Shown here one piece after another: positions 845 to 62,994 of a stretch of DNA of 64,000 bases; positions within the stretch are counted from its first letter, which is position 1, and each line of letters opens with the position of its first letter. The stretch spans positions 1 to 64,000 of the forward strand of contig JAAXIF010000098.1 of assembly GCA_012270485.1 (NCBI GenBank), read 5' to 3'. A program made the translations under genes and the position numbers. The notes under the pieces are model-generated. The model made no database searches. It saw nothing but the letters and a program-made list of their open reading frames with translations, and was not told the origin of the DNA. The DNA is from Sphingobacteriales bacterium. Its GTDB lineage: Bacteria > Bacteroidota > Bacteroidia > Chitinophagales > Chitinophagaceae.

Positions 845-1201
845 GGATTAGTCCATAGCTGATGGTCCATAGTCCATGGCAAGCACAATTCATCTGCCAT
901 AAGCTTCCTAACATTGCTGTCCGGTAAAATCAGCTATGAGCTGCGTGCCTTGAGCTATGCGCCTTTTAATATTGAATTTGCAGCTTCAAATAGCATCGTT
1001 GTAACGATCAAATACTTCTTTTATACAAGTATTTTCCAAAAACTATTTCGCAAACCCCTCTATTTATTCTAGAAATGCAGATAGTCTACAATAGCCGGCA
1101 ATCTTAGCACGGAGCTTGTGGCTCAAGGCTCACAGCCTATTTTCCCCGGACAATAATGGCTTCCTACTATGGACTATCGACCATGGACTATGGACTATGA
1201 C
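845..1201. repeat. Heptamer-repeat locus A: long inverted duplication
   Basis: The left part (849-884) reads as 7-bp units such as TAGTCCA, TAGCTGA and TGGTCCA. The right part (1167-1201) reads as CTATGGA, CTATCGA, CCATGGA. The two are reverse complements in character, and the inner parts (about 898-965 and 1107-1165) also match each other inverted, including TGTCCGG facing CCGGACA. The whole forms a long imperfect inverted repeat upstream of the ABC transporter gene. Confidence 0.75.
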
Positions 1202-1271
1202 GCCCCGCAACTTTGTCACATTTTCAATATTTGTACGGAAATTGAAGGTTAATTGCACTCAAATCTTATAC

Positions 1272-3050
1272 ATGAAAATTCTCCTGCATTATCTCAAACC
1301 TTATAAATGGCTCGTGGTGCTGGCTTTGGTGCTGGCTGGGATCAATCAAACTTTCTCACTTTTCGACCCTATGATCTTTGGTAAACTCATTGATCAGTTC
1401 GCCAATAGCCCTAAAATAAACCCGGATGGCAGTTTTCGTACAGAAAGTCAGTTCATCAATGGCATTATGTTCATGTTGCTGCTGTTGGTAGGAACTGCCA
1501 TGGTGAGCCGAATCGCCAAAGCTTTTCAGGATTATACCGTAAATGTCATCATCCAAAAATTTGGCGCGAAAATCTTTACCGATGGATTGAAACATTCTAT
1601 GCGCCTGCCCTATCAGGAATTTGAAGACCAGCGCAGTGGCGAAACTTTATCGATCCTTACCAAAGTTCGTTCTGATACCGAGAAATTCATCGGTTATGTC
1701 ATCAATGTATTATTCGGCATCATTGTGAGTGTGGTCTTTGTATCTATTTATGCTACCAGACTTCACTGGTCGATTGTTCCTATTTATTTGGGTGGCGCTT
1801 TGATGATTGCTTTTGTCACCAACTTGCTGAGTAAGAAAATCAAAGTGATCCAAAAAAATATCGTAAAGGAAACCACTTCATTAGCAGGTTCCACCACAGA
1901 GAGTTTAAGAAATATTGAATTGGTAAAAAGTCTGGGACTGACAGATCAAGAAGTAAAACGACTCAATACCAACACGTATAAAATTCTGGGGCTTGAATTG
2001 AAAAAAGTGAAAAGTATACGTTCACTTAGTTTTATTCAGGGCACCATGGTGAACTTTCTCAGACAGGTCATTACTTTTACCTTGATGTGGTTGATTTATC
2101 GTGATGTTTTAACAGTGGGTCAATTGATTTCATTACAGTTTTATAGCTTCTTCATTTTTGGTCCATTACAAGAGATCGGAAGTATCATCATGAGTTATCG
2201 TGAGGCAGAAGCTTCCTTACAAAATTTTCATAACCTGATGGGCAAAAAAGTAGAACCCAGACCCGATCATCCTCAACAAGTGGGCACCATTGAAGAATTG
2301 GCATTTGATCAGGTAGTGTTCAAACACCAGACTGCTCAATATCGTGCATTGGATGGTATTTCATTTGATGTAAAGAAAGGAGAAACCATTGCTTTTGTTG
2401 GACCATCCGGTTCCGGAAAAAGTACTTTGGTGAAATTGTTGGTAGGATTGTATCGTCCACAAGAGGGACATATTTATTATAACAAAGTGAATGGCGCCAA
2501 TATGAATTTTGATGAACTGAGAAATCAGATCGGATTTGTAACGCAGGATACACAATTATTCGCCGGTACCATCAGAGAAAATCTCAGCTTTGTATACCCA
2601 CAAGCTACTGAGGCAGAATTACTGGAAGCTTTATCCAAAGCCAGTTGCAACAATTTATTATCACGTGCGGAAAAAGGTTTGGACACCATGATTGGTGAAG
2701 GTGGATTGAAATTGAGTGGTGGAGAAAAACAGCGCTTATCTATTGCCAGAGCATTACTCAGACATCCGCGTTTATTGATTTTTGATGAAGCAACTTCTGC
2801 ATTGGATAGTATCACCGAAGAAGAAATCACCAATACCATCCGTAATATCTCGAGAGAGAAAGAACAGATCACAGTTATGATTGCTCACCGCTTAAGTACC
2901 ATCATGCATGCAGATCGGATCTATGTTTTAGAAAAAGGACAAGTAGTGGAGACAGGCAATCATAGTTCGCTCATCAATGAAAAGGGATTGTACTATGCTA
3001 TGTGGAGACAGCAGATTGGCGAAAGAAAAAATTTATCTATACCCGTTTAA
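1272..3050 (+). CDS. ABC exporter, fused permease and ATPase
   Basis: This is a half-size ABC exporter of about 592 residues (MsbA/MdlB-like architecture). The first ~310 residues form the membrane domain with about six helices. The C-terminal ATPase domain shows Walker A GPSGSGKST, the signature LSGGEKQR, Walker B LLIFDEATSALD and the H-loop AHRLST. It should act as a homodimer in the inner membrane; the substrate cannot be read from sequence. I chose the ATG at 1272 (MKILLHYLKPYKW) because the frame upstream to 1116 runs through the heptamer repeat and gives a peptide unlike an exporter N-terminus. The gene is single and ends in a perfect 30-bp inverted repeat. Confidence 0.9.
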   Translation: MKILLHYLKPYKWLVVLALVLAGINQTFSLFDPMIFGKLIDQFANSPKINPDGSFRTESQFINGIMFMLLLLVGTAMVSRIAKAFQDYTVNVIIQKFGAKIFTDGLKHSMRLPYQEFEDQRSGETLSILTKVRSDTEKFIGYVINVLFGIIVSVVFVSIYATRLHWSIVPIYLGGALMIAFVTNLLSKKIKVIQKNIVKETTSLAGSTTESLRNIELVKSLGLTDQEVKRLNTNTYKILGLELKKVKSIRSLSFIQGTMVNFLRQVITFTLMWLIYRDVLTVGQLISLQFYSFFIFGPLQEIGSIIMSYREAEASLQNFHNLMGKKVEPRPDHPQQVGTIEELAFDQVVFKHQTAQYRALDGISFDVKKGETIAFVGPSGSGKSTLVKLLVGLYRPQEGHIYYNKVNGANMNFDELRNQIGFVTQDTQLFAGTIRENLSFVYPQATEAELLEALSKASCNNLLSRAEKGLDTMIGEGGLKLSGGEKQRLSIARALLRHPRLLIFDEATSALDSITEEEITNTIRNISREKEQITVMIAHRLSTIMHADRIYVLEKGQVVETGNHSSLINEKGLYYAMWRQQIGERKNLSIPV

Positions 3051-3054
3051 ACAG

Positions 3055-3136
3055 AGAAATAAGAAACATGAAATAAGAAATCAGGAAGTGAAATTTCTCT
3101 CCGTTTCTGATTTCTTATTTCATGTTTCTTATTTCT
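3055..3136. repeat. Heptamer-repeat locus B: perfect 30-bp inverted repeat
   Basis: Bases 3055-3084 are the exact reverse complement of 3107-3136, separated by a 22-bp loop. The arm is built of 7-bp units (AGAAATA, AGAAACA, TGAAATA, AGAAATC). It lies between two convergent genes, right after the ABC gene stop, and may act as a bidirectional terminator, though it lacks GC pairs. Confidence 0.85.
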
Positions 3137-3142
3137 TATTTC

Positions 3143-3586
3143 CTAGTCCCTTCCAAACTTCTTTCTAAAATACTCAATCACCGAAGGATCTTCCAGTCCT
3201 TCCATATCACTGAGTTCTAATTCAAGGGCTTTGGTGCTGAGTTGGATTTCAATAAGAGAAAGAAACAAGGAAGCAGCAAAGCAGATCAAACTGATGGCAA
3301 ATACAATATTGGCGGCGATCATGAATTGGGTATAGATGAGGTACATACAGATGATACAGCCTAAAAAAGTAACCACCCCCAATGCCTGCATATTTTTGAT
3401 CAGCTTCAATCGGTAACGTAGGTTTTTGATCTGACCATGAATGATATGTTTCTGTTCATGGCTCTGGTATTTATCATGCAAGCTTCGAATACGATTCGAT
3501 AAAGAAAGGAACCGATTGGTATATGCCAGCATGATGAGGCTAATGGCGGGGAACAGCAATGCGGGTGTGTTTAAGTTGATCTCCAT
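3143..3586 (-). CDS. DUF2721 family membrane protein
   Basis: This 147-residue protein matches the DUF2721 pattern: a hydrophobic N-terminal helix (residues ~8-24, INLNTPALLFPAISLIMLAY), a conserved basic segment (FLSLSNRIRSLHDKY), and two further membrane helices at about 66-86 and 90-112. The function of this family is unknown. It is convergent with the ABC exporter, with locus B between the stops. Its start lies about 300 bp from the next gene. Assignment rests on the N-terminal motif and helix layout. Confidence 0.8.
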   Translation of the reverse strand: MEINLNTPALLFPAISLIMLAYTNRFLSLSNRIRSLHDKYQSHEQKHIIHGQIKNLRYRLKLIKNMQALGVVTFLGCIICMYLIYTQFMIAANIVFAISLICFAASLFLSLIEIQLSTKALELELSDMEGLEDPSVIEYFRKKFGRD

Positions 3587-3615
3587 GCTTAAAATTAAGA
3601 AAGAACCGGTATTTA

Positions 3616-3810
3616 GGGGGTGTCAAAAATGAAGTGACCGCCGCGAGATTGGTTTGATGGCTTATGGTTCATGGCTTATAGTCGATAGTCCATGGTCCAT
3701 GGTCTATAGTAAAAGATTGGGGATGTCTCAAAATAAAGTAACCGCTGCGAGATTTGTTTGATGGCTAATGGTTCATGGCTGATGGTCGATGAACCATGGA
3801 CTATGGACTA
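3616..3810. repeat. Heptamer-repeat locus C: two ~103-bp tandem copies
   Basis: Two diverged copies, offset by about 103 bp, each begin with a conserved leader (GGGGTGTC/GGGATGTC, then AAAGTRACCGCNGCGAGATT). Each then runs into 7-bp units (ATGGCTT, ATGGTTC in copy one; GGCTAAT, GGTTCAT in copy two). The heptamer parts of each copy partly face each other as inverted arms. Confidence 0.75.
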
Positions 3811-3848
3811 AAAAAAAGAGGCTGTATCAAAAGTCTGATACAGCCTCA
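3811..3848 (-). terminator. Intrinsic terminator of the lipoprotein gene
   Basis: A 12-bp perfect stem (GAGGCTGTATCA facing TGATACAGCCTC, 3819-3848) with a 6-base loop is followed, on the minus strand, by a run of eight T. It lies just downstream of the stop at 3881. Confidence 0.85.
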
Positions 3849-3880
3849 ATGCTTAAACTAAAACAAAACCCTGAGAAAAA

Positions 3881-4435: not shown

Positions 4436-4455
4436 ACACACTTGATTTTTAGAAA

Positions 4456-6828: not shown

Positions 6829-6831
6829 GGT

Positions 6832-6863
6832 TGTAAAAATAATAGGATTTTTTCATTTTTACA
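6832..6863 (-). promoter_or_regulatory. Inverted repeat upstream of the TonB receptor
   Basis: TGTAAAAAT at 6832-6840 and ATTTTTACA at 6855-6863 are perfect inverted copies with a 14-bp spacer. They sit directly before the receptor start codon. An operator role is possible but untested. Confidence 0.35.
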
Positions 6864-24278: not shown

Positions 24279-24413
24279 AGGTGATGGGTACTAGGTACAA
24301 GGTGCTAGGTGCTAGGTGCTAGGTGCTGGTAAAAAACTTAGGGATAAGTCATTAGTACATTAAACGTAATTCCCGATTAACTAGTACCCAGTACCTTGTA
24401 CCTAGCACCTATC
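24279..24413. repeat. Heptamer-repeat locus D between divergent genes
   Basis: The left arm (24279-24328) contains 7-bp units GTACTAG, GTACAAG and four of the GTGCTAG type. The right arm (24380-24413) is its inverted counterpart (CTAGTAC, CCAGTAC, CTTGTAC, CTAGCAC). It lies between divergently transcribed DUF4271 and hemW genes, so it cannot be a shared terminator. The right arm ends directly on the putative hemW -7 element. Confidence 0.85.
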
Positions 24414-25589: not shown

Positions 25590-25647
25590 TAAGCATAACT
25601 ATTATGACTGAGCTAAAAAAAATGTTCAGCTGGGAAAATCAGCTTGA

Positions 25648-25689
25648 AGCCTGTAGCTTGTGGCTTGCAGCTCATGACTTGCAGCTATT
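25648..25689. repeat. Heptamer-repeat locus E
   Basis: Six 7-bp units run in register (AGCCTGT, AGCTTGT, GGCTTGC, AGCTCAT, GACTTGC, AGCTATT). The facing arm is short (AGCTG...CAGCT at about 25628-25644). The array ends in the stop codon of the small ORF at 25688-25789. Confidence 0.65.
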
Positions 25690-26818: not shown

Positions 26819-26913
26819 GCATCAAAGAATTGTTTCGGTACGAAGATAGGAATTGTGGTTGGATGCGGATAGGTAATGGCAAATGGTTCATTGCAAACAA
26901 ATGACGCTATTCC

Positions 26914-26942
26914 CTCCGGACTGAAGTCCGGAGCTATTTAAA
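26914..26942. repeat. ACTGAAGT palindromic element, copy 2
   Basis: CTCCGGACTGAAGTCCGGAG is a perfect 9-bp stem around GA, followed by CTATTTAAA. It lies upstream of gpsA, while the related copy lies downstream at 25561-25589. Confidence 0.65.
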
Positions 26943-26984: not shown

Positions 26985-27019
26985 TTTCTTATTTCTTGTT
27001 TCTTATTTCTTGTTTCTCA
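26985..27019. repeat. Heptamer-repeat locus F (single arm)
   Basis: Five 7-bp units in register: TTTCTTA, TTTCTTG, TTTCTTA, TTTCTTG, TTTCTCA. They directly precede (plus strand) the 3' end of the efflux adaptor gene. No facing arm was found. Confidence 0.75.
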
Positions 27020-27023
27020 CTCT

Positions 27024-28373
27024 CTACTCTTTTTTCTTTTCTTCAAAAAGCTTATCCTTTGGTACAATTTTTACCAGATTGCCATCTTTTAAGATCTTGC
27101 TCACGGTATTATACGGCCCCGTTACTACTTGATCTCCATCATTGAGTCCGTCTATAATTTCAATATAGTTCAAGTCTTGGATAGCGGTTTTCACCTTTAC
27201 CTTTTTTACTTTATTATCTTTCTGAACAATGAAGACCACTTCTTCTACTGCCTCATCATCAATCCCCGTTTTATCCTCTGAAGATAGTTGTTTGGAAGCA
27301 CCATCTTTTTCATCACTGTTTTTCTCACGCGTGGTTACTGCATTGAGTGGAACTGCCAATACATTTTCTTTGGTGTTGGTTTGAATATCTGCGCTGGCGC
27401 TCATACCCGGACGAAAAGGGAAAGCCCTGCCCGGAATCATCATATCCTTATAACTATCCGGAATCAATCTGATATGTACTTTGTAATTCGTGACTTCAGT
27501 ACTGGTTGCTGTGGTTGTTGCTTGTGTATTCGGATTGGCAATTTTATATACCAGCCCTTTGAATTTACGATTGGTATATGCATCTACTTCCACCAATGCT
27601 GTATCTCCTAGTTTTACTTTGGGTATATCATTTTCACCAACATCAACACGTATTTCAATGCTTCGCATATCTGCTACACGCATCATTTCTGTTCCTGCCA
27701 TTTGCGCGGTTCCTACTACTCTTTCTCCCTTCTTTACTGCCAACAAACTAATCACACCATCCATCGGTGCTACCAGTGTGGTTCTGGATAGATCTTTATG
27801 AGCTCTTGCCAACTGTGCTTCAGCTCCCATGATAGATGCTTCTGTTCCTTTTAATCCTTCAATTGCCGCTTTATAATTGGCTTCTGCGGTGCGGTATGCT
27901 TGTTCAGCCTGATCGTATTCTTGACGTGAAGTTACTTTCTCGGTATACAATTTTCGCTGACGTTCAAAAGCTGCTTTGGCATTATCTAATATTGCCTTTA
28001 ATCCCGGAATATTGGCATTGGAATTGGATAATTGTGCTTTTGCTTGCTCAACGCCGGCAGCAAACTGATCGCGCTGAGTAGAATAAATATCTGCATAGAT
28101 ACGAGCCAACACCTGTCCTTTGCGAACACTGTCGCCTTCATTTACATTCAATTCAATGATCTCTCCACTTACATCCGGACTCACTTTCACCTCAATCTCA
28201 GGGTATACTTTACCACTGGCATTTACTGTTTCGATGATGGTTCTGAGTGCTGCTTTTTCTGCAGACACATTCAATCCTTCATCTTTCCCAATAACACCTG
28301 TTTTTTTCAGTCCAATAAATGCACCCACAACAACTACTAACCCTACAATCGTCCACAATAGTTTCTTGTTCAT
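27024..28373 (-). CDS. Periplasmic adaptor of a tripartite efflux pump (HlyD/RND type)
   Basis: This 449-residue membrane fusion protein has an N-terminal anchor helix (LLWTIVGLVVVVGAFIGLK), a barrel-sandwich/lipoyl half-motif (VKVSPDVSGEIIELNVNEGD), a helical hairpin (about 100-190), a second lipoyl half (TTLVAPMDGVISLLAVKKGE) and beta-barrel domains. It couples an inner-membrane pump to TolC. It lies 38 bp downstream of a TolC-family gene, but no pump gene is in this operon within the window, so the transporter is encoded elsewhere or lost. An acidic, Ser-rich insertion near residues 345-375 (EKNSDEKDGASK) interrupts the C-terminal region. Confidence 0.88.
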   Translation of the reverse strand: MNKKLLWTIVGLVVVVGAFIGLKKTGVIGKDEGLNVSAEKAALRTIIETVNASGKVYPEIEVKVSPDVSGEIIELNVNEGDSVRKGQVLARIYADIYSTQRDQFAAGVEQAKAQLSNSNANIPGLKAILDNAKAAFERQRKLYTEKVTSRQEYDQAEQAYRTAEANYKAAIEGLKGTEASIMGAEAQLARAHKDLSRTTLVAPMDGVISLLAVKKGERVVGTAQMAGTEMMRVADMRSIEIRVDVGENDIPKVKLGDTALVEVDAYTNRKFKGLVYKIANPNTQATTTATSTEVTNYKVHIRLIPDSYKDMMIPGRAFPFRPGMSASADIQTNTKENVLAVPLNAVTTREKNSDEKDGASKQLSSEDKTGIDDEAVEEVVFIVQKDNKVKKVKVKTAIQDLNYIEIIDGLNDGDQVVTGPYNTVSKILKDGNLVKIVPKDKLFEEKKKE

Positions 28374-32524: not shown

Positions 32525-32712
32525 TGGGTTATAGTCTATGGTCGATAGTCCATAGTCCATGGCAGATGGGTCATGTAGAGTAGCTGATAGTTCATAGCAA
32601 ATAGTAGAAAATATTTTGGAACGGGTAATAATCTTTGCAATCTCTTTACCATGAGCTATCATCTATTGTAATGAACTATTAGCCATATGCTATGGACTAT
32701 CGACTATCGACC
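32525..32712. repeat. Heptamer-repeat locus G between divergent genes
   Basis: The left array (about 32529-32602) contains units such as TAGTCTA, TGGTCGA, TAGTCCA and TAGTTCA. The right array (32651-32712) contains inverted-type units (CTATGGA, CTATCGA). They face each other across ~50 bp and fill most of the region between the permease start and the riboswitch promoter. Confidence 0.8.
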
Positions 32713-32769: not shown

Positions 32770-32777
32770 TACTTTTG
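32770..32777 (+). promoter_or_regulatory. -7 promoter element of the btuB transcript
   Basis: TACTTTTG matches TAnnTTTG; transcription would start near 32784, exactly at the 5' edge of the riboswitch. Confidence 0.5.
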
Positions 32778-32782
32778 CTACC

Positions 32783-33023
32783 GTATTTGGTTCTCGCTAT
32801 ATGCGGGATTAAAAGGGAAGTCCGGTGTGAATCCGGCGCTATCCCCGTAGCTGTAAGTTCTTGGGTGGTTTGCTTATAGCTAATAGATCATAGCTAATAG
32901 ACTATTTGCTATGATCCATTAGCCATTACCCTCTCACCGCTGTCGTTTCTACTAACCACTGTTCCTAATTAATGGGATGGGAAGGTTCAATGACAGAGAA
33001 CAAGCCAGAAGACCTGCCAGACA
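32783..33023 (+). promoter_or_regulatory. Cobalamin (B12) riboswitch with extra hairpin
   Basis: The RNA shows the cobalamin aptamer core: GGGAAGTCCGGTGTGAATCC at 32815-32834, then GCGCTATCCCCGTAGCTGTA to 32855, and at the 3' side GGGAAGG (32979-32985 area), then AACAAGCCAGAAGACCTGCC (33000-33019). It should bind a B12 form and reduce btuB expression. The peripheral arm between the two halves carries a heptamer-repeat hairpin (32872-32930) not part of the usual aptamer. The total is about 240 nt. Assignment by the core boxes is strong. Confidence 0.92.
32872..32930. repeat. Heptamer-repeat locus H inside the riboswitch
   Basis: Units AGCTAAT, AGATCAT, AGCTAAT, AGACTAT run in 7-bp register. 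GCTAATAGATCATAGC (32879-32894) pairs with GCTATGATCCATTAGC (32908-32923) with one mismatch, giving a 16-bp hairpin in a peripheral arm of the aptamer. Confidence 0.85.
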
Positions 33024-33120
33024 CAAACGTTCATTCACGGCTTTCGGGTGAAAAGCATGGAATGTAAATGCTGTCTGCAGCGGCTATTTATGTTTCTCCG
33101 TTTTTTAAAATTTCCTGAAA

Positions 33121-33156
33121 GCTCATTGTTCAACCTTATAACAAACAACAATGAGC
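33121..33156 (+). promoter_or_regulatory. Start-codon-sequestering hairpin of btuB
   Basis: GCTCATTGTT (33121-33130) is the perfect reverse complement of AACAATGAGC (33147-33156), which contains the btuB ATG (33151-33153). This 10-bp stem with a 16-base loop could block initiation and act as expression platform of the riboswitch. Confidence 0.6.
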
Positions 33157-35067
33157 AAAACAATTACGCTCCTTGCATGCCTGCTGTCTGGCACCCAGGT
33201 ATTTGCACAAAAAGACACGGTTATCCTTGATGAAGTAGTGGTAACTGCCAACAAAATTGAACAGAAACAAAGTAGTACCGGTAAAGTGATCTCTGTGATC
33301 ACCAAAGCCCAAATTGAAAAAAGCGGTGGTAAGAGCATTTCCCAATTACTCAATGAACAAGCCGGGATCACCATTAATGGTGCTTTCAATAATATCGGTA
33401 GCGTTCAAACCGTGTATATGCGCGGGGCTTCTCCTGGTCGTACATTGATCATGATGGATGGAATTCCATTGAATGACCCCTCTACCATCACTACAGATTT
33501 TGACCTGAATTTGTTTTCCATTAATGATGTTGAAAGAATTGAAGTGTGCAGAGGTGCTCAATCTACACTATATGGCAGCGATGCCATTGCGGGGGTAGTG
33601 AATATCATTACCGTAAAAAAAGATGCCCAAAAAGCATTCAATGTAAAAGCAACTTTGAGTCAGGGTAATCTTGGTACATCCCGCAATAATATTCAGTTGT
33701 ATGGTAAGAAAAATAAATTCACTTACACTGCCCGTTATGCACGTTTATTTACCAATGGATTTTCATCTGCCTATGACAGTACAGGTATTCGTAATTACGA
33801 TAAAGACAAATACGATGGTTCTGTTGCCAACGCCCAATTGATGTACCAGGCCAACGATCATCTCATGTTCAAAACATTTCTGATGCACAGTCAATACAAA
33901 GCAGGTATTGATGCAGGGGTATTCAATGATGACCGTGACTATAATATCAATAACACATCACTGATCACCGGTACCGGATTTCAATACAAGAAAGGCGCTT
34001 TCGCATTGACCGGAAACTATCAATACAGCGAACTCGGACGCAATTACAGAAACGATAGTGCGCATAAAACCAGTACTATTTTTGAAGACAACAGTTATAA
34101 CGCTATTTCTCAGTTTGCTGAATTGTACAGTTTAGTGAAACTGGGTGCAGGTTTCACATTGCTCACAGGTATTGATTATCGCTATGGGTCGTACAACCAA
34201 GACTATTTCGCGATCAGCTCATTTGGTCCATTCAGAAGCAGGTTTCGTGATACCTCTATGTCACAAACCGCCTTGTATGGTTCATTGATCTATAGTAGCG
34301 CCGATAAGAAACTGAATATCGAATTTGGCGGACGTTATAACGATCATTCTCGTTATGGCAACAATGCTACTTATACTTTCAATCCTTCTTATAGTATCAA
34401 TGATGCCGTTCGTGTATTTGGTAGTATTTCAAGTGGATTCAAAACACCTTCATTATACCAGTTGAGTTTGAATGCCAACTTGAAAGCAGAAAAATCTGTG
34501 AACTATGAAGCAGGCATCAGCTATCAAAGCAAACAACTGAGTACTCGACTTATCTATTTTAATAGAAAGATCAATAACGGTATTGACTACAACTATATCA
34601 CGTTCAACTATTTCAATTATGTAAAACAGATTGTGAATGGTTTGGAATGGGAAATAAATGCGAAACTGGGCAAAAAAGCAGGTATTACTGCCAACTATAC
34701 ATTATTGCTGAGTGAAGAACTAACCCAAAACCGTTTGTCCACCAAAGACACAGTTACTTACGATTATCTCTTACGCAGACCCAAGCACCATTTCAATATC
34801 AGTGCCAATGTGGACTTGTGCAAGGGATTGAATGTAGCGGTTACCGGCAAATATGTAAGTCAACGTTTTGATATTGGCGGATTCAGAAGAGCAGATGTTT
34901 CATTACCATCTTATTTTATTCTTGGTGCTTCAGCTGATTACGTACTGAATAACAGCGTTCGCTTCTTTACTGATGCACAGAATATTACCGGCAAAAAATT
35001 CTTTGATGCACGCGGATTTAATGCCATCCCATTTTTGTTTAATGCCGGGGTGACGTTTAATTGGTAA
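33151..35067 (+). CDS. btuB: Cobalamin TonB-dependent receptor BtuB
   Basis: BtuB-type receptors import vitamin B12 across the outer membrane using TonB. The 638-residue protein has a signal peptide (MSKTITLLACLLSGTQVFAQ), a TonB-box-like start (DTVILDEVVVTANK), a plug (about 40-150, with VYMRGASPGRTLIMMDGIPL and DVERIEVCRGAQSTLYGSDA) and a barrel ending in FLFNAGVTFNW. Ligand assignment rests mainly on the cobalamin riboswitch directly upstream. The same window encodes a B12-dependent photoreceptor (47352-48233), giving a use for the vitamin. Confidence 0.92.
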   Translation: MSKTITLLACLLSGTQVFAQKDTVILDEVVVTANKIEQKQSSTGKVISVITKAQIEKSGGKSISQLLNEQAGITINGAFNNIGSVQTVYMRGASPGRTLIMMDGIPLNDPSTITTDFDLNLFSINDVERIEVCRGAQSTLYGSDAIAGVVNIITVKKDAQKAFNVKATLSQGNLGTSRNNIQLYGKKNKFTYTARYARLFTNGFSSAYDSTGIRNYDKDKYDGSVANAQLMYQANDHLMFKTFLMHSQYKAGIDAGVFNDDRDYNINNTSLITGTGFQYKKGAFALTGNYQYSELGRNYRNDSAHKTSTIFEDNSYNAISQFAELYSLVKLGAGFTLLTGIDYRYGSYNQDYFAISSFGPFRSRFRDTSMSQTALYGSLIYSSADKKLNIEFGGRYNDHSRYGNNATYTFNPSYSINDAVRVFGSISSGFKTPSLYQLSLNANLKAEKSVNYEAGISYQSKQLSTRLIYFNRKINNGIDYNYITFNYFNYVKQIVNGLEWEINAKLGKKAGITANYTLLLSEELTQNRLSTKDTVTYDYLLRRPKHHFNISANVDLCKGLNVAVTGKYVSQRFDIGGFRRADVSLPSYFILGASADYVLNNSVRFFTDAQNITGKKFFDARGFNAIPFLFNAGVTFNW

Positions 35068-35068: not shown

Positions 35069-35194
35069 AAGTCAAAAATCAAAATGCAAAAGTCAAAAAA
35101 GGCATAGTAACTAAGTAGCTAATTTGCACTACTATTTACCATGGACTATTAACCATTAGCTATTGTCACTTTTGACTTTTGCATTTTTAATTTT
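35069..35194. repeat. Heptamer-repeat locus I (nested arms)
   Basis: The outer left arm (35069-35100) has units AAGTCAA, AAATCAA, AATGCAA, AAGTCAA. The outer right arm (35165-35194) has the inverted units TTTTGAC, TTTTGCA, TTTTTAA. An inner pair with different words (TAGTAAC/TAGCTAA and ATTAGCT) is nested inside. It starts at the btuB stop. Confidence 0.85.
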
Positions 35195-35200
35195 TCTTCC

Positions 35201-35426: not shown

Positions 35427-35517
35427 TAATGAGTAGTGAATATTCAGTAGTGAGTTAGGAGCAATCCATAGTTCTTCAAAAAATTACTCACTGCTCACTA
35501 CTGACTACTCACTATTC
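35427..35517. repeat. Heptamer-repeat locus J
   Basis: The left arm (35431-35455) reads GAGTAGTGAATATTCAGTAG and onward; the right arm (35486-35517) has units ACTCACT, GCTCACT, ACTGACT, ACTCACT. The arms are inverted copies and occupy the whole gap between two codirectional genes. Confidence 0.85.
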
Positions 35518-39892: not shown

Positions 39893-41041
39893 CTACCTGA
39901 ACAACTGTTGCATCGCTGCTTTTAGGAATATACCAGTGGGTACACTATTCATGATATGCAGGTCATCCCATACACTGGTTTCATTATCTAAAAAACGAAG
40001 TACACGCTGAGGCGGATTCTTTTGAAAGATCGCTGCAAATATCTGATCGCCGTTGAGTTTTTTATGGTGTAATACACTCAATAATACACTATCGTACAAG
40101 CGAAATTTTTTCGCATTAATACTATTATCAGCTTTAGGAACACGATTGTTTTTTAAAGCATCCACCACACTTGCTGTTCTTTTTTGTATGAACTGAAATG
40201 CATATCCACTGCTTCCTTTGGCTTGTCCGCCTGCAATTCCAATATAAATGACTTTACCTTCAACTGAAGGGAAAACATGATTGGTCATAGGGATGATTCC
40301 AAATTCTTCTTGTTCAATGGTAAATGTATTGATCCCCAGATAGTCAGAAAGATATTGTATCAGCTCCTCCGAATACTTCTCCTGTGGTAATAATGTCTCT
40401 GTAAATAAAGTATACTCTACCAGTGCTTTATTAGTTGATACCGGTAATACATACATAAATGTTGTTCCTTCTTTCTGCGACACCCTGAAATCCATAAAAG
40501 TAGCTTTGGAAGGGTCAAAGACCGGCGTAGGTGTTTCAATGACCCAACCTTTAAAATGCTGCAGCAACATATATTGTCTGGCTGTGATTTTTGGTTCCCG
40601 GAAAAGAATGCTATTGAAAATATAGTCAGCGGTTATCTTTCCTGAAGGCAATGTCAATACGGCTTTATTATTTTCATTCCCAACTCCCAGCACTTCCTCA
40701 TAATGAAAATGAACATTACTTTTATTGGCTGCCTTTTGTAACACATACTGATAAAAATCAATGCCCCTTATCATTTTATACCGATACGGATCGATAGCTA
40801 ATGTGGCTGAATAATCATTTGAAAAGAAATCTAACTGTTTCCATTGATGATATACGATTGATTCGAAAAGCCCTTTTTCTTTTTCCCAAAAACACCAGGT
40901 TCTGTCGTTTTGCTGTTTTGGCGCTTTATCTACAACCAATATTTGTTTGTCATCAAAAAAAGGGTCTTGCATCATGCGCATAAGCAGGCTCATACCTGCA
41001 AGACCTAAACCGGAGATGATATAGTGATAGTGAGTTGTCAG
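39893..41041 (-). CDS. crtY: Lycopene cyclase CrtY without standard start codon
   Basis: CrtY cyclises lycopene ends to beta-ionone rings. The first ATG (40993) begins inside the FAD-binding motif: the frame upstream encodes HYHYIISGLGLAGMSLLM, whose GLGLAG is the dinucleotide-binding loop. So translation must start earlier. No ATG, GTG or TTG occurs before the in-frame stop at 41090-41092; CTG at 41041 is the first near-cognate candidate (start shown), with ATT at 41056 and 41071 as others. This upstream stretch is heptamer locus K. The body has NDRTWCFWEKEKG, GWVIETPTPVFDPSKATFMDFR and YIGIAGGQAKGSSGYAFQF, normal for the family. Confidence 0.8.
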   Translation of the reverse strand: MTTHYHYIISGLGLAGMSLLMRMMQDPFFDDKQILVVDKAPKQQNDRTWCFWEKEKGLFESIVYHQWKQLDFFSNDYSATLAIDPYRYKMIRGIDFYQYVLQKAANKSNVHFHYEEVLGVGNENNKAVLTLPSGKITADYIFNSILFREPKITARQYMLLQHFKGWVIETPTPVFDPSKATFMDFRVSQKEGTTFMYVLPVSTNKALVEYTLFTETLLPQEKYSEELIQYLSDYLGINTFTIEQEEFGIIPMTNHVFPSVEGKVIYIGIAGGQAKGSSGYAFQFIQKRTASVVDALKNNRVPKADNSINAKKFRLYDSVLLSVLHHKKLNGDQIFAAIFQKNPPQRVLRFLDNETSVWDDLHIMNSVPTGIFLKAAMQQLFR

Positions 41042-41070
41042 TAGTGAATGGTCAATTGTGAATGGTGAAA
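41022..41070. repeat. Heptamer-repeat locus K in the crtZ-crtY gap
   Basis: Units ATAGTGA, TAGTGAG, TTGTCAG, TAGTGAA, TGGTCAA, TTGTGAA, TGGTGAA run in 7-bp register from the crtZ stop into the crtY coding frame. Confidence 0.7.
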
Positions 41071-45128: not shown

Positions 45129-45157
45129 GCTTATGGCCAATAGCTCATGGCCTATTG
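45129..45157. repeat. Heptamer-repeat locus L inside the carotenoid operon
   Basis: Units GCTTATG, GCCAATA, GCTCATG, GCCTATT run in 7-bp register in the crtI-crtB gap; they pair partly with each other (ATGGCC/GGCCAT-like). Confidence 0.65.
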
Positions 45158-52121: not shown

Positions 52122-52199
52122 CTTATGTTTCATAGCTTATAGTTCATAGCAGATAGCAAGAAGATTGGCTATACGCCATGAACTATAAGCTATTAGCTC
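52121..52199. repeat. Heptamer-repeat locus M between convergent genes
   Basis: The left arm (52121-52157) has units TTTCATA, GCTTATA, GTTCATA, GCAGATA. The right arm (52167-52199) has GAACTAT, AAGCTAT, TAGCTCA. They face each other between two convergent genes and contain the stop codons of both. Confidence 0.85.
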
Positions 52200-55800: not shown

Positions 55801-55823
55801 GTTGACATTGATTTGTGGCGAAA

Positions 55824-55860
55824 ATAGTGAATAGTCCATGGTCTATGGTTGATAACCATT
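55824..55860. repeat. Heptamer-repeat locus N
   Basis: Units ATAGTGA, ATAGTCC, ATGGTCT, ATGGTTG, ATAACCA run in 7-bp register between the permease stop and the kinase-fusion start; ATGGTT pairs with AACCAT. Confidence 0.7.
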
Positions 55861-55866
55861 GGATTA

Positions 55867-57276
55867 TTATTTTTTTCTCGAAAGATAATAGACAGGGAGT
55901 CCAACTAAGGTGATGAGTATCCCTAAAACAGAATGAATAACCTGTGTTTGTCCATGCTGATAATGACTGATATCATTCACCAAAGTAACGACCAGAAAAA
56001 AAGCAGTGAATATGACAAAGACCGCCGGTACAAAAGGATAGCCCCATACTTTATACACCCTTTTTTCTTCTTTCATTTTCTTTCTTAACAGAAAAACACC
56101 TAAAGCGCTCATGCCATAAAAAAACCAACTCACAAAAATGAGAATATCTGTAAGCATGTCAAATGAACCACTGATGATCAAACAAATAGTCCATGCCGCA
56201 TTGAGCCAAAGTGCATTACCTGGTGTCTTGTACCGAGGTTGTACTTTACCGGCCCAAGCAAATAACTTGTTGTTATCAGCCATGGCAAATGTTACCCTTG
56301 ATGTGGCGAGGATATTGGCATTCGTAGTTCCCAAAACAAAAAGCATTACCATAAGTGTAATCAGTACACCGCCTATACTTCCCCAAGCAATATTGGCTGC
56401 ATCTGAAGCAATGAATGAAGAAGCTGCTATTTGTTGAACAGGCATCAGGTATACAAAAGCTAAGTTCACCAATACATAAACGATGATACAAAAGCTTAAT
56501 CCCAAGAATAAACTTTGCGGAATATTTTTTTGCGGCTCTTTGATTTCACCGGCTACAAAAGATATATTGTTCCATCCATCATAAGCCCAGAAAGCTCCTG
56601 CCAACGCAGCCATATAAGCACTCAACATCATCCAATCGGTGGGCACATGTGTTGTGCCTTGTAAAATATTGGATACATCTCCTTTGCCTGAGAAAAAAAT
56701 ACCACCGATCAACAATAGAATGGCTGCAGCTTTCAAAGCAGTAAGAATACGTTGTACCCTTCCGCCATATTGAACACTGCGATAACTGATGGCAGTAAAT
56801 ATGACGATCACTAGAATGGTCAAAAATTTAACACCCAGGTTTTGCAGAGGAAAAAAAGTTCCGATATAAGGAATGACCAAGCTAAAAGATTGTTCAGTTG
56901 CAGTATTGAGTCGAGGCAATTCAATGAGGTATCCAGTATACTGTGAGAACACATAGGCAATCGAAGCATTACCAGCTGTGTTAAAAACAGCAAATGCAGC
57001 CCAGCCATAAATAAACGCAAATCCGTTACCATACATTTTTTGAAAGAAGACATATTGTCCACCCGTTTCGGGGAACATGGCTGCTACTTCCGCATTGGAC
57101 AATGCTCCGAATAATGTAATGATACCTGCTACTACCCAAACACTCAACAATAAAATAGGTGATTGCAACTGAGCGACCATCAAAGAGGGCTTCATAAAAA
57201 TACCCGACCCAATGACGCCACCCACCACGATGGCAATAGCAGTATTTCTATTCAGTTGACGGAGCAGGGTGGGCAT
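55867..57276 (-). CDS. APC-family amino-acid permease
   Basis: The 469-residue protein has 12 predicted helices and APC motifs: VVGGVIGSGIFMKPSLMVAQ in helix 1, GIITLFGALSNAEVAAMFPE in helix 2 and FWAYDGWNNISFVAGEIKEP in helix 6. The resemblance is to amino-acid antiporters of the LAT-like branch. The substrate cannot be read. It reads in the same direction as the kinase fusion downstream of it, with locus N between; heptamer locus O lies just upstream. Confidence 0.9.
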   Translation of the reverse strand: MPTLLRQLNRNTAIAIVVGGVIGSGIFMKPSLMVAQLQSPILLLSVWVVAGIITLFGALSNAEVAAMFPETGGQYVFFQKMYGNGFAFIYGWAAFAVFNTAGNASIAYVFSQYTGYLIELPRLNTATEQSFSLVIPYIGTFFPLQNLGVKFLTILVIVIFTAISYRSVQYGGRVQRILTALKAAAILLLIGGIFFSGKGDVSNILQGTTHVPTDWMMLSAYMAALAGAFWAYDGWNNISFVAGEIKEPQKNIPQSLFLGLSFCIIVYVLVNLAFVYLMPVQQIAASSFIASDAANIAWGSIGGVLITLMVMLFVLGTTNANILATSRVTFAMADNNKLFAWAGKVQPRYKTPGNALWLNAAWTICLIISGSFDMLTDILIFVSWFFYGMSALGVFLLRKKMKEEKRVYKVWGYPFVPAVFVIFTAFFLVVTLVNDISHYQHGQTQVIHSVLGILITLVGLPVYYLSRKK

Positions 57277-57302
57277 GGTTAAAGATAAGAGAGATTTTTG
57301 GA

Positions 57303-57418
57303 GAGTTGATAGTTGTTAGTTGACAGTTGACAAGGGTTCATGACTAATGGGGATGTCGTATAGTTCAACTATGAACTAATAGTCTTCTATAATCTGTCAA
57401 CTATCAACTGTCAACTCA
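57303..57418. repeat. Heptamer-repeat locus O
   Basis: The left arm (57304-57331) has units AGTTGAT, AGTTGTT, AGTTGAC, AGTTGAC. The right arm (57395-57415) has the inverted units CTGTCAA, CTATCAA, CTGTCAA. A second inner pair (TAGTTCA facing TGAACTA at about 57361-57378) is nested inside. It fills the gap upstream of the permease. Confidence 0.88.
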
Positions 57419-57420
57419 CA

Positions 57421-58482
57421 TCAAAACAACCGCCCCTGCTCCCCAGGCCGCCTAAATCTTGTCGCATCGAGCTCCCATCGCTCCGCGTTGAGTTGATAGA
57501 GTTTATTGTACTTGATAAATTGTTGTCTTACCATATCTGCAATCGGACCTTCGCCACGCATTCTCACACCATAGCGACTATCATTCACTTGTCCACCATG
57601 ACCATTTTGAATTAGGTGCCAGACTTTATCGGCCCTATCGGGAAAATTTTTATAGAGCCAATCATGAAAAATCAGTTTGATGGCTCCATTCAGGCGAATA
57701 AAAGTATAAGCACTGAATACAGCACCATGTTCACTGGCTGCTTTCATGATACGTTGCATTTCATGATCATTCAAACCGGGTATCATCGGACCTAACATTA
57801 CTCCCATTCTTACACCTGCAGAACTTAATTCTTTGATCACTCGTAATCTTTGCTTAGCCGTTGTTGTTCTGGGTTCCATGGCCCGGCGCAAGTCTTCATC
57901 AAAAGAAGTGATACTCACCAATATGCTTACTAGATTTTTCTTCGCCATTTCCTGTAGCAGATCTTTATCGCGTAGAATACCTGCATTCTTGGTAATCATT
58001 CCCACCGGTTGATTGAATTCATTACATACTTCTAATAATTGTCGCGTTAACCTGAATTTTTTCTCTGCCGGCTGGTAGCAATCTGTATTACCACTCAAAC
58101 TAATGGGTACAGGCTCCCAGTTTTTGTGCATCAAAAATTTACGCAGTAATTGTGGTGCATTTTTTTTGACGATGATCTTTCGCTCAAAATCCAATCCGGC
58201 ACTATAACCCCAATATTCATGTGCATTTCGCGCATAACAATAAATACAACCATGCTCACAACCCTGATATGGATTCATACTGTACCACATACCTACATCC
58301 GGACTCTCCACTTTATTCACAATACTTTTTGCTTGGTCTTCCAGATACACAGTTTCTTCATTGGGTTCTGTCCAATCGTCAATCGCTTCTATATGTTCCC
58401 TAACCCTTTCGTTTTTTAAAAACCGATTACGCGGATTGAATTGTGCGCCACGCCCTTTTAGATAGGATGATTCCTCTTCCAT
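57421..58482 (-). CDS. PA0069-family radical SAM protein (SplB-related)
   Basis: The 353-residue protein has the radical SAM cluster motif in YQGCEHGCIYCYARNAHEYW (CxxxCxxC), followed by LSGNTDCYQPAEKKFRLTR and LGPMIPGLNDHEM. This matches the PA0069 group of SplB-related radical SAM proteins. Spore photoproduct lyase repairs a UV-made thymine dimer; whether this group repairs DNA is unknown. The location beside DNA-damage tolerance genes is suggestive only. Confidence 0.85.
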   Translation of the reverse strand: MEEESSYLKGRGAQFNPRNRFLKNERVREHIEAIDDWTEPNEETVYLEDQAKSIVNKVESPDVGMWYSMNPYQGCEHGCIYCYARNAHEYWGYSAGLDFERKIIVKKNAPQLLRKFLMHKNWEPVPISLSGNTDCYQPAEKKFRLTRQLLEVCNEFNQPVGMITKNAGILRDKDLLQEMAKKNLVSILVSITSFDEDLRRAMEPRTTTAKQRLRVIKELSSAGVRMGVMLGPMIPGLNDHEMQRIMKAASEHGAVFSAYTFIRLNGAIKLIFHDWLYKNFPDRADKVWHLIQNGHGGQVNDSRYGVRMRGEGPIADMVRQQFIKYNKLYQLNAERWELDATRFRRPGEQGRLF

Positions 58483-58535
58483 AACTTTTCTTTCTTCGCT
58501 TATGATGCGATTGTTAATATCAAATTAATCAGCAC

Positions 58536-59141: not shown

Positions 59142-59151
59142 AGCGGGTATA

Positions 59152-59186
59152 AGTTTCAAGCATCAAGAAACAAGGATCAAGAGATA
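59152..59186. repeat. Heptamer-repeat locus P
   Basis: Units AGTTTCA, AGCATCA, AGAAACA, AGGATCA, AGAGATA run in 7-bp register between two same-strand 2H-like genes. TTTC faces GAAA within the array; no separate arm. Confidence 0.7.
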
Positions 59187-59194
59187 TATCTTTA

Positions 59195-59788: not shown

Positions 59789-59812
59789 AAACAAAATTTT
59801 ACCGTGTCAATT

Positions 59813-59847
59813 ATTTTAGCATAAATTTACTAAAATATTTAGCTAAA
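59813..59847. promoter_or_regulatory. TTTAG/CTAAA operator between 2H and umuD-like genes
   Basis: ATTTTAG (59813-59819) and CTAAAAT (59830-59836) are perfect inverted copies with a 10-bp spacer; the palindrome TTTAGCTAAA follows at 59838-59847. The cluster lies in the shared divergent promoter region, so one repressor could control both sides. The repressor is unknown. Confidence 0.5.
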
Positions 59848-59861
59848 CAAAATTTATTTAT

Positions 59862-60293: not shown

Positions 60294-60724
60294 CCCCCTT
60301 TCCCCCTGCCCCCTGAAGGGGGGTATAAGTGAGCTAGTATGAAAAAGACGATGTATTATGATGCTGGGCCTATTGCATTTCAGCGGGCGAAGGAGCTACG
60401 TAAGCAACTTACGGATGCTGAAGTCATTTTATGGAATCGGTTGAAGCAAAATTTACTGGGTTGTAAATTCAGAAGACAACATCCCCTCGCAGGCTATATT
60501 GCTGACTTCTATTGTCACCAACATCGATTGGTAATTGAAGTAGATGGTTCTATTCATAATAGACCAGACAGAAAGGAATATGATCAAGAACGCGATGCAG
60601 AACTCCGAAGTTTACAACTTACTATATTAAGATTTACGAATCATGAGGTCTTACATAACACAGACCAAGTCATCAAAACCATTTTAAAATACATAAAATC
60701 CCCCCTTTAGGGGGCTAGGGGGCT
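60294..60724. mobile_element. DUF559 endonuclease cassette with terminal inverted repeats
   Basis: The left end (60294-60324, G/C runs ending in CCCCCTGAAGGGGGG) and right end (60700-60724, CCCCCCTTTAGGGGGCTAGG) are inverted copies of each other. Each also forms its own hairpin. Between them lies only the DUF559 gene. The 431-bp unit starts directly after the umuD stop and ends directly before the umuC ATG, so it seems inserted at the gene junction. No transposase is present. Confidence 0.7.
60339..60710 (+). CDS. DUF559 Vsr-like endonuclease domain protein
   Basis: The 123-residue protein is a DUF559 (PD-(D/E)XK, Vsr-like) nuclease with ELRKQLTDAEVILWNRLKQN, LLGCKFRRQHPLAGYIADFY and the active-site-like LVIEVDGSIH. 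Family members are common as short stand-alone genes; their role is unknown. The stop codon TAG lies within the right terminal repeat. It sits between umuD and umuC, on the same strand. Confidence 0.85.
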   Translation: MKKTMYYDAGPIAFQRAKELRKQLTDAEVILWNRLKQNLLGCKFRRQHPLAGYIADFYCHQHRLVIEVDGSIHNRPDRKEYDQERDAELRSLQLTILRFTNHEVLHNTDQVIKTILKYIKSPL

Positions 60725-62005
60725 ATGAAGGCGATTGTTGATTGTAATAGTTTTTATTGTTCCTGTGAACGATTATTCAGACCTGAACTGAAGCATCGTC
60801 CGGTAGTGGTATTGAGTAATAACGATGGTTGTATCATTTCACGCAGCGATGAAGCCAAACAATTGGGAGTGGAAATGGCCGGACCGTATTTCAAAGCCAA
60901 ACCATTGATTGAGCAATATGGTGTCGCCACTTTCTCCTCCAATTATAATCTGTATGGTGATCTGAGCTGGCGTGTAATGGAAACATTGCGCATGATGCTA
61001 CCACCCGGTTGTGTAGAAGTATATTCAGTGGATGAAGCTTTTCTGAACCTTGATCATATTCCAGCAGAACAATTATCTGCCTTTGCATTACAACTAAGAG
61101 AAACCGTAGAAATGTGGACAGGCATTGCGGTATCCATCGGCGTAGCCCCTACCAAAGTATTGAGTAAGGTAGCCAACAGGCTTGCTAAGAAAAATAAAGT
61201 AATCACCAATTGCGTACTCGTTTTAGATACCCCACGCAAAATTGAACAGGCATTGAAAAAAACTCCGATAGAAGATGTATGGGGTGTGGGGCATCAGTAT
61301 GCAGTAAAACTACAGCGCATGAATATTCTGAATGCGTATGATCTCAGCATCAGAGATATTCATTGGGCAGGCAAACAACTGGGTGGCGTTACAGGTGTTC
61401 GTTTGGTCAGAGAACTGAAAGGCTCGATCAGCAGAGAAATGGAAGATGAAAGAATCAGAAAAAAAATGATCGCCACTACCCGTATGTTTGGTTCACCGGT
61501 ATCCGAACTCAAAGACATCAAAGAAGCAGTAGCTACTTATACTTCAAGAGCAGCTGAAAAATTACGCCGACAATATTCCGCTGCCAATACCATCAGCGTA
61601 TTTGTGGTTCCCAAGCAACCTTCTGTTGAACCTTATTTCAAACACGGACCCACACTCAGTAAGTATACTACTTTACCAGTCGCCACTTCTTTTACACAAG
61701 AGCTTATCAAACCCGCGATGGCATTGGTAGAGGAACTCTATGAAGAAGGAACACTTTACAAAAAAGCCGGTGTGATCCTCAGCGGTATCGTACCCGATGA
61801 TTCCGTACAAGGTAATTTGTTCAAAACACCCTCGCAAAACCACAACCGTCTACTCATGGATATGATGGACAATGTCAATTTCGCCATGCGAGACGACATC
61901 ATCAAGTTCGCCTCCTCCGGCACTACTCGCAACTGGAAAATGCGACAAGAATTACGCAGTCCACGTTATACAACGAGATGGGAGGAGTTGTGCGAGGTGG
62001 GGTGA
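60725..62005 (+). CDS. umuC: Y-family DNA polymerase UmuC
   Basis: UmuC performs translesion synthesis past DNA damage. The 426-residue protein has the metal-binding MKAIVDCNSFYCSCERLFRP and SVDEAFLNLD motifs of Y-family catalytic cores, the thumb (EDVWGVGHQYAVKLQRM), the little finger (about 240-350) and a C-terminal DUF4113 tail (SPRYTTRWEEL). It begins directly at the right end of the DUF559 cassette and should be cotranscribed with the umuD-like gene. It ends at heptamer locus Q. Confidence 0.95.
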   Translation: MKAIVDCNSFYCSCERLFRPELKHRPVVVLSNNDGCIISRSDEAKQLGVEMAGPYFKAKPLIEQYGVATFSSNYNLYGDLSWRVMETLRMMLPPGCVEVYSVDEAFLNLDHIPAEQLSAFALQLRETVEMWTGIAVSIGVAPTKVLSKVANRLAKKNKVITNCVLVLDTPRKIEQALKKTPIEDVWGVGHQYAVKLQRMNILNAYDLSIRDIHWAGKQLGGVTGVRLVRELKGSISREMEDERIRKKMIATTRMFGSPVSELKDIKEAVATYTSRAAEKLRRQYSAANTISVFVVPKQPSVEPYFKHGPTLSKYTTLPVATSFTQELIKPAMALVEELYEEGTLYKKAGVILSGIVPDDSVQGNLFKTPSQNHNRLLMDMMDNVNFAMRDDIIKFASSGTTRNWKMRQELRSPRYTTRWEELCEVG

Positions 62006-62007
62006 GG

Positions 62008-62087
62008 AGTCCATGGTCGATGGTCCATGGTCCATAGTTAAGCAGGTATTTTTCTTGCTATGGACTATCGACCATGGACTATGGACT
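62008..62087. repeat. Heptamer-repeat locus Q between convergent genes
   Basis: The left arm (62008-62046) has units GTCCATG, GTCGATG, GTCCATG, GTCCATA. The right arm (62055-62087) has CTATGGA, CTATCGA, CCATGGA, CTATGGA. The arms are near-perfect inverted copies. The DUF72 stop codon TAG (62086-62088) lies in the right arm. Confidence 0.88.
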
Positions 62088-62994
62088 AAAACAAAGACTG
62101 TTGCTGTTGCACAAACACTGGCTTTTTCAGTTCAAGTCCGCAGGCGGCATTGAGTTTGTCTACCATGTACACCGTAAGCTCGGGAGAAAATGCTTCATCG
62201 TGCATATGCATGAAAAAATAGATCTCTTCCATTCCCTGATTGATCCAGTATTTCATTCTTTCAATCCATGCATCCACACGTGTATAATCTGTCGGATGCA
62301 AACTATTACCTACATAACGAATAAAGGTTTTAGAAACCGTCAAATGCATGTGTGCACAATCTCTTCTACCGCTGGTATCAGTAATGACTGCGCCGATACT
62401 CATTTCTTTCAACCTAGTAAACAATTCTTCACTGATATCCGGTTTGGTAAACCAATCGGGATGACGTACTTCCATGAAGAATTGCATATCGGTGGGGAGA
62501 GACTTGAGAAAATCAAACAACTCTTCTTTTCGTTTCGGAGAAAAGCTATCGCTTACCTGAACGAATACTGGTCCGAGGTGCTCCTTAAATGCGATGATGC
62601 CACGTAAAAATTCAGTGGTGATAAAATCCTTGCCCTTCAGGTTACCACGATGGGTAACACCTTGATACATTTTTGGACAAAATTTAAAATCCTTTCCTAC
62701 CGCCTTATCCACCCATTTTTCAATACCTGCAGCACCATATACCTTATAATGAGTAGCATTCAGCTCAATGCTATTATAGTGCTTTACATAATGCTCTAGA
62801 AAATCTTTCTCTTTGGTTTTAGGCGGATAGATTTTACCAATCCACTCCGTACGCCCCCATTTGGCACAACCCAAGTATACTTTGGGATGCTTTTGTGGCT
62901 TACCTTTCAATACCTGTTGATTGAATGCAGGCTCTGTGGGAAGGGTAAAATCAATCGTATTTAATTCCGATTCATGTACGCGGCCAAATTCCAT
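62086..62994 (-). CDS. DUF72 family protein
   Basis: The 302-residue protein matches DUF72 (TIM-barrel-like): KVYLGCAKWGRTEWIGKIYP at the N-terminus, FLEHYVKHYNSIELNATHYK, then FFMEVRHPDWFTKPDI. The ending EIYFFMHMHDE is a variant of the family's usual VYVYFNNH motif. The function is unknown. It is convergent with umuC, and its stop lies in heptamer locus Q. Confidence 0.88.
   Translation of the reverse strand: MEFGRVHESELNTIDFTLPTEPAFNQQVLKGKPQKHPKVYLGCAKWGRTEWIGKIYPPKTKEKDFLEHYVKHYNSIELNATHYKVYGAAGIEKWVDKAVGKDFKFCPKMYQGVTHRGNLKGKDFITTEFLRGIIAFKEHLGPVFVQVSDSFSPKRKEELFDFLKSLPTDMQFFMEVRHPDWFTKPDISEELFTRLKEMSIGAVITDTSGRRDCAHMHLTVSKTFIRYVGNSLHPTDYTRVDAWIERMKYWINQGMEEIYFFMHMHDEAFSPELTVYMVDKLNAACGLELKKPVFVQQQQSLF

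Follow-up and report, generated by a model that had tools for sequence, protein, structure and literature searches.

How does a bacterial genome come to hold, in one intergenic gap after another, hairpins whose arms are built of tandem degenerate 7-bp units, and how can such a site stay a hairpin while its repeated word changes? The question is raised by a window of 64,000 bases (bases 1-64000 of contig C89) from a draft genome of the Sediminibacterium group (4.04 Mb, 108 contigs), in which an earlier inspection, here called the sequence-only reading, had listed 17 loci with heptamer repeats and had proposed a process that expands and diversifies words locally while the inverted partner is kept in step. 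We find that the period-7 hairpins are real, that many sites hold a hairpin both in this genome and in its sister, and that at nine of 21 such sites the two genomes cleanly differ in word in both arms.

The signal at period 7 is sharp. With a simple segment score applied per period to 463,825 bp of the window's own genome (the window plus 399,825 bp more, about 11% of the genome), we called 72 arrays at period 7, between 0 and 6 at each of periods 4-6 and 8-13, and 29 at period 14, a harmonic of 7; scaling 72 arrays per 464 kb extrapolates to about 600 genome-wide. Autocorrelation over an intergenic sample of 223 pieces (44,124 bases) gave z scores of 14.9 at lag 7, 10.6 at lag 14 and 8.1 at lag 21, with -0.2 at lags 6 and 8; lag 3 was also high (9.0). 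Intergenic period-7 arrays number 55, against one in 20 dinucleotide shuffles pooled, and periods 6 and 8 gave 0 and 1 arrays in these pieces. The sequence-only reading had staked its case on such an autocorrelation excess over shuffled intergenic DNA, and the excess is there. At 16 of its 17 loci the period-7 score beats all 200 letter shuffles; at 45129-45157, where 7 of the 200 shuffles reach the score, a heptamer locus is not upheld. Its description of the arrays as mostly two inverted arms also stands: at 12 of the 17 loci the arms outscore every one of 15 shuffles, which they fail to do at 25648, 26985, 41022, 45129 and 59152. In the larger sample, hairpins scoring at least 30 and higher than all of 8 shuffles occur at 38 of the 50 array loci. 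Arrays in gaps of at least 40 bp number 66, and 17 have their middle inside an open reading frame (ORF, called by length only), several of them near the ORF end.

The history of these sites can be read against two relatives. The closest named record is Sediminibacterium sp. Gen4 (G084; 98% identical over a DinB-like protein), followed by a Chitinophagaceae metagenome-assembled genome (MAG; G085, 97%), with the next record at 79%. In the four blocks compared, DNA identity is 90.8-96.1% between the own genome and G084, 86.1-89.4% between the own genome and G085, and 85.9-87.5% between G084 and G085, and we therefore take the first two as sisters and G085 as the outgroup. For 35 of 38 array loci of contig C89 (1-122 kb and 304-344 kb) an orthologous stretch was obtained from the sister; 24 of these form a hairpin in the own genome, 22 in the sister and 21 in both. 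The arms fit each other more closely within one genome than between the two at 16 of the 21 (equal at 3, worse at 2; Wilcoxon p = 6e-4). A strict word-switch score returned only two loci, with flanks falling inside the compared arms, and a word-sharing measure was used instead. By this measure, no more than 20% of heptamer words are common to both genomes at 10 of the 21 loci (24280, 35487, 82226, 97636, 116583, 308875, 310641, 311731, 319542 and 340768), where the flanks are 89-97% identical, and at nine of the ten the arms are better matched within each genome than across. We count these nine as clean word switches.

The switches can be complete. At 97636 and 310641 the own genome has GTCCAT arms and the sister GTGAAA arms, and at 82183 an own GTGAAT hairpin corresponds to a sister CCATGG hairpin, right after what is apparently the same stop codon. 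The GGTGCTA hairpin at 24279-24413 (arms 24283-24315 and 24381-24413) has a counterpart in the sister with a different word that reads as period 8 and contains no period-7 words, so that the claim of a 7-bp register kept by all loci does not hold across genomes. At 35487, within a GTAGTGA-like hairpin (35431-35517), the own genome and G085 have words in common and G084 has switched; because the first two agree, the simplest reading puts the change of both arms on the G084 lineage. Local change with both arms in step, which the sequence-only reading had proposed and had suggested looking for in orthologous gaps, is thus supported: hairpins stay at the same sites and their arms stay paired while the words change.

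Smaller steps are visible as well. The AAATAAG/TTTCTTA hairpin at 3049-3141 (arms 3049-3087 and 3104-3141) has, at 3063 in its left arm, a 7-bp unit that is absent from both G084 and G085, and its longest exact arm-to-arm match is 30 nt in the own genome, 12 in G084 and 13 in G085. A unit at 3699 is likewise missing in both relatives, and the RGTCCAT hairpin at 62008-62087 (arms 62008-62037 and 62058-62087) has an extra left-arm unit at 62020, which appears as 7 bp against G084 and as an 8-base gap against G085. As judged by genome comparison only, the 3063 unit fits the pattern of quasipalindrome correction, in which one arm is made to match the other, and those at 3699 and 62020 fit it less clearly. 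Three more sites differ from the sister by exactly 7 bp: 109190, about 322733 and about 327687. In another related pair, the loci L023 and L024, which are 91.6% identical around the site, L024 has eight GTGAGGC units in its left arm, and the right arm lacks them. In both the own genome (L179, L181, L183, L185) and G084 (L178), contig ends carry arrays of 7-9 GGTGCTA units, and a nine-unit array lies within a contig at L176. We read L024 and these near-pure arrays as slippage in one arm first, with the partner presumably following later. It should be noted that the contigs of L178 and L179 are 93% identical over 1.5 kb and that both break at the GGTGCTA array.

The words themselves are numerous and are not private to their loci. 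Thirty-five canonical word classes, of 1172 possible, dominate the 72 arrays, and words within arrays are mixed in register; a single family of two classes, RGTCCAT, dominates 23 of the 72. A 17-bp probe for this family matches 39 times in the own genome, 21 times in G084 and 18 times in G085, and found no match in 59 other relatives or in six further genomes. When one RGTCCAT hairpin was searched against the whole genome, many matches covered an arm only (24-44 bp, mostly 85-97% identical), and those covering both arms and the loop were 68-81% identical, the orthologue excepted; loops are mostly unrelated among the family loci read. The best whole-hairpin copy is a pair in G084 with a common loop, 88% identical over 78 bp, other non-orthologous hairpin pairs of at least 60 bp being mostly 63-82% identical. 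The best match of an arm is its own partner in 22 of the 38 hairpins; among the 15 RGTCCAT-family loci the figure is only 4. The statement that each locus has its own word therefore fails for this family, within which locus-specific arms were rejected. Nor can dispersal be set aside as the sequence-only reading had done, since the family dominates about one third of arrays, with arm-length matches at many loci and mostly unrelated loops. Because RGTCCAT recurs with mostly unrelated loops and its probe is absent from the 59 relatives, we conclude that words also pass from locus to locus; the pattern calls for some interlocus copying, or for a common constraint acting on the words.

Beyond the three genomes the signal becomes weaker and patchy. 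Seventy-eight loci from other Chitinophagaceae (1,408,288 bases) hold 48 period-7 arrays, confined to 21 of the loci, and we call the signal weaker because other periods also give arrays there (23 at period 8, 20 at period 6, 16 at period 9). The richest of the 78 is L066, from Chitinophagaceae bacterium DXS, with 10 period-7 and 7 period-8 arrays in 21 kb. An array was found in 5 of 22 stretches from genomes of the same genus and the same order. Across the phylum, a probe of three ATTCACN units matched 8 of 198 genomes, the own genome included, and its reversed-word control, itself a heptamer word, matched 7; one fixed word for the phylum was rejected on these counts, which favour neither word by number of genomes; words differ from genome to genome. 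In seven genomes picked for having arrays, the probe matched six and the reversed word one.

Based on these observations we can present a rough proposal, in which copying errors at replication are the main means by which the arrays are maintained and rewritten. Polymerase slippage would add or remove whole 7-bp units in one arm; the nascent strand, folded into the hairpin, would take the other arm as template, as in quasipalindrome correction, and the partner arm would follow; occasional copying of units from an array at another locus would spread a word family without its loop. With time a whole hairpin could shift from one word to another, the site staying a hairpin throughout, and its location would be filtered by selection against damage, which would leave few arrays inside genes and make them less frequent in divergent (promoter) gaps than in convergent ones. 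Slippage by 7 together with arm-to-arm templating explains both the unit gains and the matched arms. Each molecular step, the order of the steps and the lack of need for a dedicated function are our own suppositions, and we regard the proposal as about evenly balanced between right and wrong.

Several observations weigh against it. The own-only units at 3063, 3699 and 62020 could alternatively be parallel losses in both relatives. Intergenic indels near arrays (121 kb) are of mixed length, 4 of 30 being 7 bp, 4 of 30 being 8 bp and the remainder of different sizes, to which the poor alignment of switched loci contributes; with 1 of 33 indels elsewhere in gaps being 7 bp, clean multiples of 7 were rejected as a description of indel lengths overall. 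Two of the 21 hairpin loci run counter to arm coupling, the contrast within and across genomes is partly implied by the word difference itself, and 311731 is not a clean switch, its arms matching no better within genomes than across and the sister stem being terminator-like. The complete switches at 82183 and 310641 show no visible intermediate. The polarity at 35487 is weak, as identities in the 33-36 kb block are close (90.8% between the own genome and G084, 89.4% between the own genome and G085). Copying between loci is proposed with no donor-recipient pair identified, and the low rate of partner-arm best matches in the RGTCCAT family (the 4 of 15) sits poorly with arm-to-arm templating. 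Finally, selection for pairing alone would also yield matched arms.

This last point leads to the strongest rival, in which the site needs a hairpin, for protection of transcript 3' ends or for binding of the nucleoid or a protein, and words drift while selection restores pairing. That position is kept as words change (of 24 own hairpins for which an orthologous stretch was obtained, 21 have a sister hairpin) speaks for it, as does gene context: an array was found in 13 of 34 gaps between convergent genes and in 6 of 52 between divergent genes (p = 0.007), with 28 of 165 for tandem genes, gap types being approximate because ORFs were called by length only. In tandem gaps, however, the lean toward the stop codon, counted by locus, falls short of significance (23 of 36 nearer the stop). 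Several arrays have no partner arm at all, and selection leaves the period of 7, the near-pure arrays and the family words at many loci unexplained. Terminators, one of the functions offered by the sequence-only reading, are disfavoured in their ordinary intrinsic form: a T-tract stands beside 2 of 38 hairpins and beside 126 of 996 control points, hairpin ends being approximate, though a separate terminator-like stem adjoins some arrays (3819-3847, L201). On its own, pairing selection can produce neither period 7 nor recurrent words, though it may add to the conservation of position, and we consider selected hairpins an unlikely account of the whole, if one to be taken seriously.

Mobile palindromes are the next alternative. 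Repetitive extragenic palindromes (REP) and bacterial interspersed mosaic elements (BIME) are dispersed short intergenic palindromes, rarer in divergent gaps, and the arrays could be modules of about 30 bp set in inverted pairs by a Y1 transposase of the REP-associated tyrosine transposase (RAYT) type, or ends of miniature inverted-repeat transposable elements (MITEs). One family does have arms of about 30 bp at many loci, several with the start AGTCCATGG and the end CCATGGACT, and the G084 hairpin pair with a common loop also speaks for this reading. We sought Y1 transposases in 18 genome records (G070 and G086, whose matches are the same, are apparently a single genome). The family cut-off was passed by two genes in the own genome, one in G084 and one in G085, which has another below it, and 5 arrays lie within 3.4 kb at one of the own Y1 loci, L155. 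Yet of 20 Y1 loci read, among which two pairs look like the same genome recorded twice, arrays are missing from 18 even when the threshold is relaxed, and L163 has a single weak one; G027 has a heptamer hairpin and no Y1 match; and the Y1 gene of G084 has a different palindrome, TCCGGACTAAAGTCCGGA, next to it. A RAYT/REP origin finds no support in this comparison, which showed no consistent link between Y1 loci and arrays. The conserved interior and target duplication of a MITE are not seen either: loops mostly differ between copies, the one G084 pair excepted, and in the aligned orthologous sites we noticed no duplication, nor any empty site bearing a target duplication for the heptamer hairpins. 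The arrays resemble REP and BIME in being dispersed intergenic palindromes, but are made of 7-bp units and have no common palindrome consensus (35 dominant word classes in 72 arrays), or at best one within single families. Taken together, we find a mobile origin doubtful.

Slightly more doubtful still is a structure-preserving, genome-wide rewriting, in which an active copying activity would spread heptamer modules between loci and re-template both arms, possibly through a 7-nt step of a polymerase or reverse transcriptase. A dedicated enzyme of this kind (a polymerase or reverse transcriptase whose templating step is 7 nt) that itself writes the words would agree with the sharp period and the patchy spread across Bacteroidota, but the many different words speak against one template and period 8 occurs too, which makes it very improbable. 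Chance or assembly artefact is negligible, as the 55 intergenic arrays against one in pooled shuffles and the recurrence of arrays at shared positions across three assemblies outweigh the fact that all three genomes are drafts and at least two are labelled MAG.

The copying-error proposal concerns a varied set of loci in the window, given here without strand except where stated. Besides those described above, RGTCCAT-family arrays lie at 3655-3813 (arms 3676-3707 and 3782-3813), a hairpin of RGTCCAT and related words at 32525-32712 (arms 32534-32615 and 32630-32711), and a weak RGTCCAT array with a hairpin at 55823-55868. A nested hairpin at 35069-35198 has an AAAGTCA-like outer and an ACTATTA-like inner word. 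The CTTATAG-like hairpin at 52132-52193 is unchanged in the sister, and at the GTTGACA hairpin of 57296-57426 G085 keeps the outer left arm and differs in the inner part. Arrays stand without an inverted arm at 26985-27040 (TTTCTTR) and 41030-41069 (GTGAATN), and with inverted arms that are not significant at 25641-25672 (GCTTGNA-like) and 59151-59181 (a short CAAGNAN-like array). At 62075, about 606 bp of G084 take up the place where the 62008 hairpin would have the greater part of its right arm.

A further RGTCCAT-family hairpin at 845-1201 has its arms (about 851-910 and 1162-1199) separated by a MITE-like insert of about 240 bp (about 916-1156); the hairpin is present in the sister genome and the insert is absent. 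The insert, which occupies the loop of the 851-1199 hairpin, has terminal TGTCCGGT/CCGGACA repeats, its own heptamer-like arms (GAGCTAT words) and a possible 8-bp target duplication, with relatives at C13:165846 of G084 and C139:3599 of G085. On the plus strand, a heptamer hairpin of GCTAATA-like words (32876-32926) lies inside a cobalamin riboswitch (32771-33035, upstream of the ORF 33151-35067), where the Rfam alignment of the riboswitch shows a long insertion. The riboswitch and a tRNA are the only Rfam matches at gathering score in the window, which gave no such match for a group I intron context like that of the Nostoc P6b stem.

Other dispersed elements share the window. The region 3620-3847 contains a duplicated unit of about 100 bp and a terminator-like GAGGCTGTATCA palindrome, with many scattered partial copies in G084 and G085; an imperfect palindrome at 120-208 (AACGCAGATTTTTATGATGG...) has about a dozen relatives in G084; and the palindrome TCCGGACTGAAGTCCGGAGCTATTTAAA at 26908-26942 has a near copy beside the Y1 (RAYT-type) gene of G084 (L163) and may be the REP of that transposase.

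Heptamer repeats as such are not new. Mrazek et al. 2007, as cited in PMC4679880, reported that heptamers outnumber other classes of long simple repeats in most of the genomes they examined, and slippage set by a 7-nt polymerase contact is a proposal of the same work, as cited in PMC4679880 and PMC4692102. A close likeness is the P6b stem of the Nostoc trnL intron (PMC3488679, PMC4476775), a hairpin formed by degenerate heptamers from its two sides, which varies in length by repeat copies and has two word classes, with class shifts. Paired arms of this type are found here at the 38 of 50 array loci, but P6b is one RNA locus with two classes in cyanobacteria, whereas ours are 38 hairpins in 464 kb of many words in intergenic DNA of Bacteroidota. 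The GGGNATC-type heptamers of Xanthomonas and Nostoc and the cyanobacterial short tandemly repeated repetitive (STRR) sequences are likewise intergenic, with fixed and variable positions; they lie mostly between the same genes in two species, vary in length and sequence and include some inverted pairs (PMC4692102). In the broad STRR-like sense the present arrays are of this kind, being tandem 7-bp units beyond chance and mainly intergenic; that study describes one G-rich word type and few inverted pairs, in contrast to the many words, mostly inverted arms and orthologous word changes seen here. TAACTGA repeats are also intergenic heptamers with a patchy spread and in some Bacteroidetes have other heptamers nearby, but they are one exact word, direct and mostly upstream of start codons, with one inverted case in a Beggiatoaceae genome (PMC4679880); the TAACTGA class is not among the 35 dominant here. 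Quasipalindrome correction by template switching is established in E. coli (PMC7202029) and is shown for single small events, while we would extend it to whole arrays. Among the titles listed by the literature searches, with subscription journals mostly outside them, none described genome-wide, multi-word paired heptamers or orthologous word switching in Bacteroidota. What looks new, beside known heptamer repeats and the one-locus Nostoc hairpin, is a genome-wide set of multi-word, word-switching hairpins in this phylum.

In summary, the evidence partly supports the view that these hairpin sites record an unusual copying process in DNA, one that is only partly understood. For those who study dispersed gap hairpins of Bacteroidota there is a caution in this, as such hairpins may be products of mutation and not regulatory RNA, even where the pairing seems, from covariation, to be conserved. 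Furthermore, the many natural hairpins of this clade, with words that differ between sister genomes, allow slippage, arm-to-arm templating and interlocus copying to be told apart, and they bear on the wider question of why the unit of heptamer repeats is 7.

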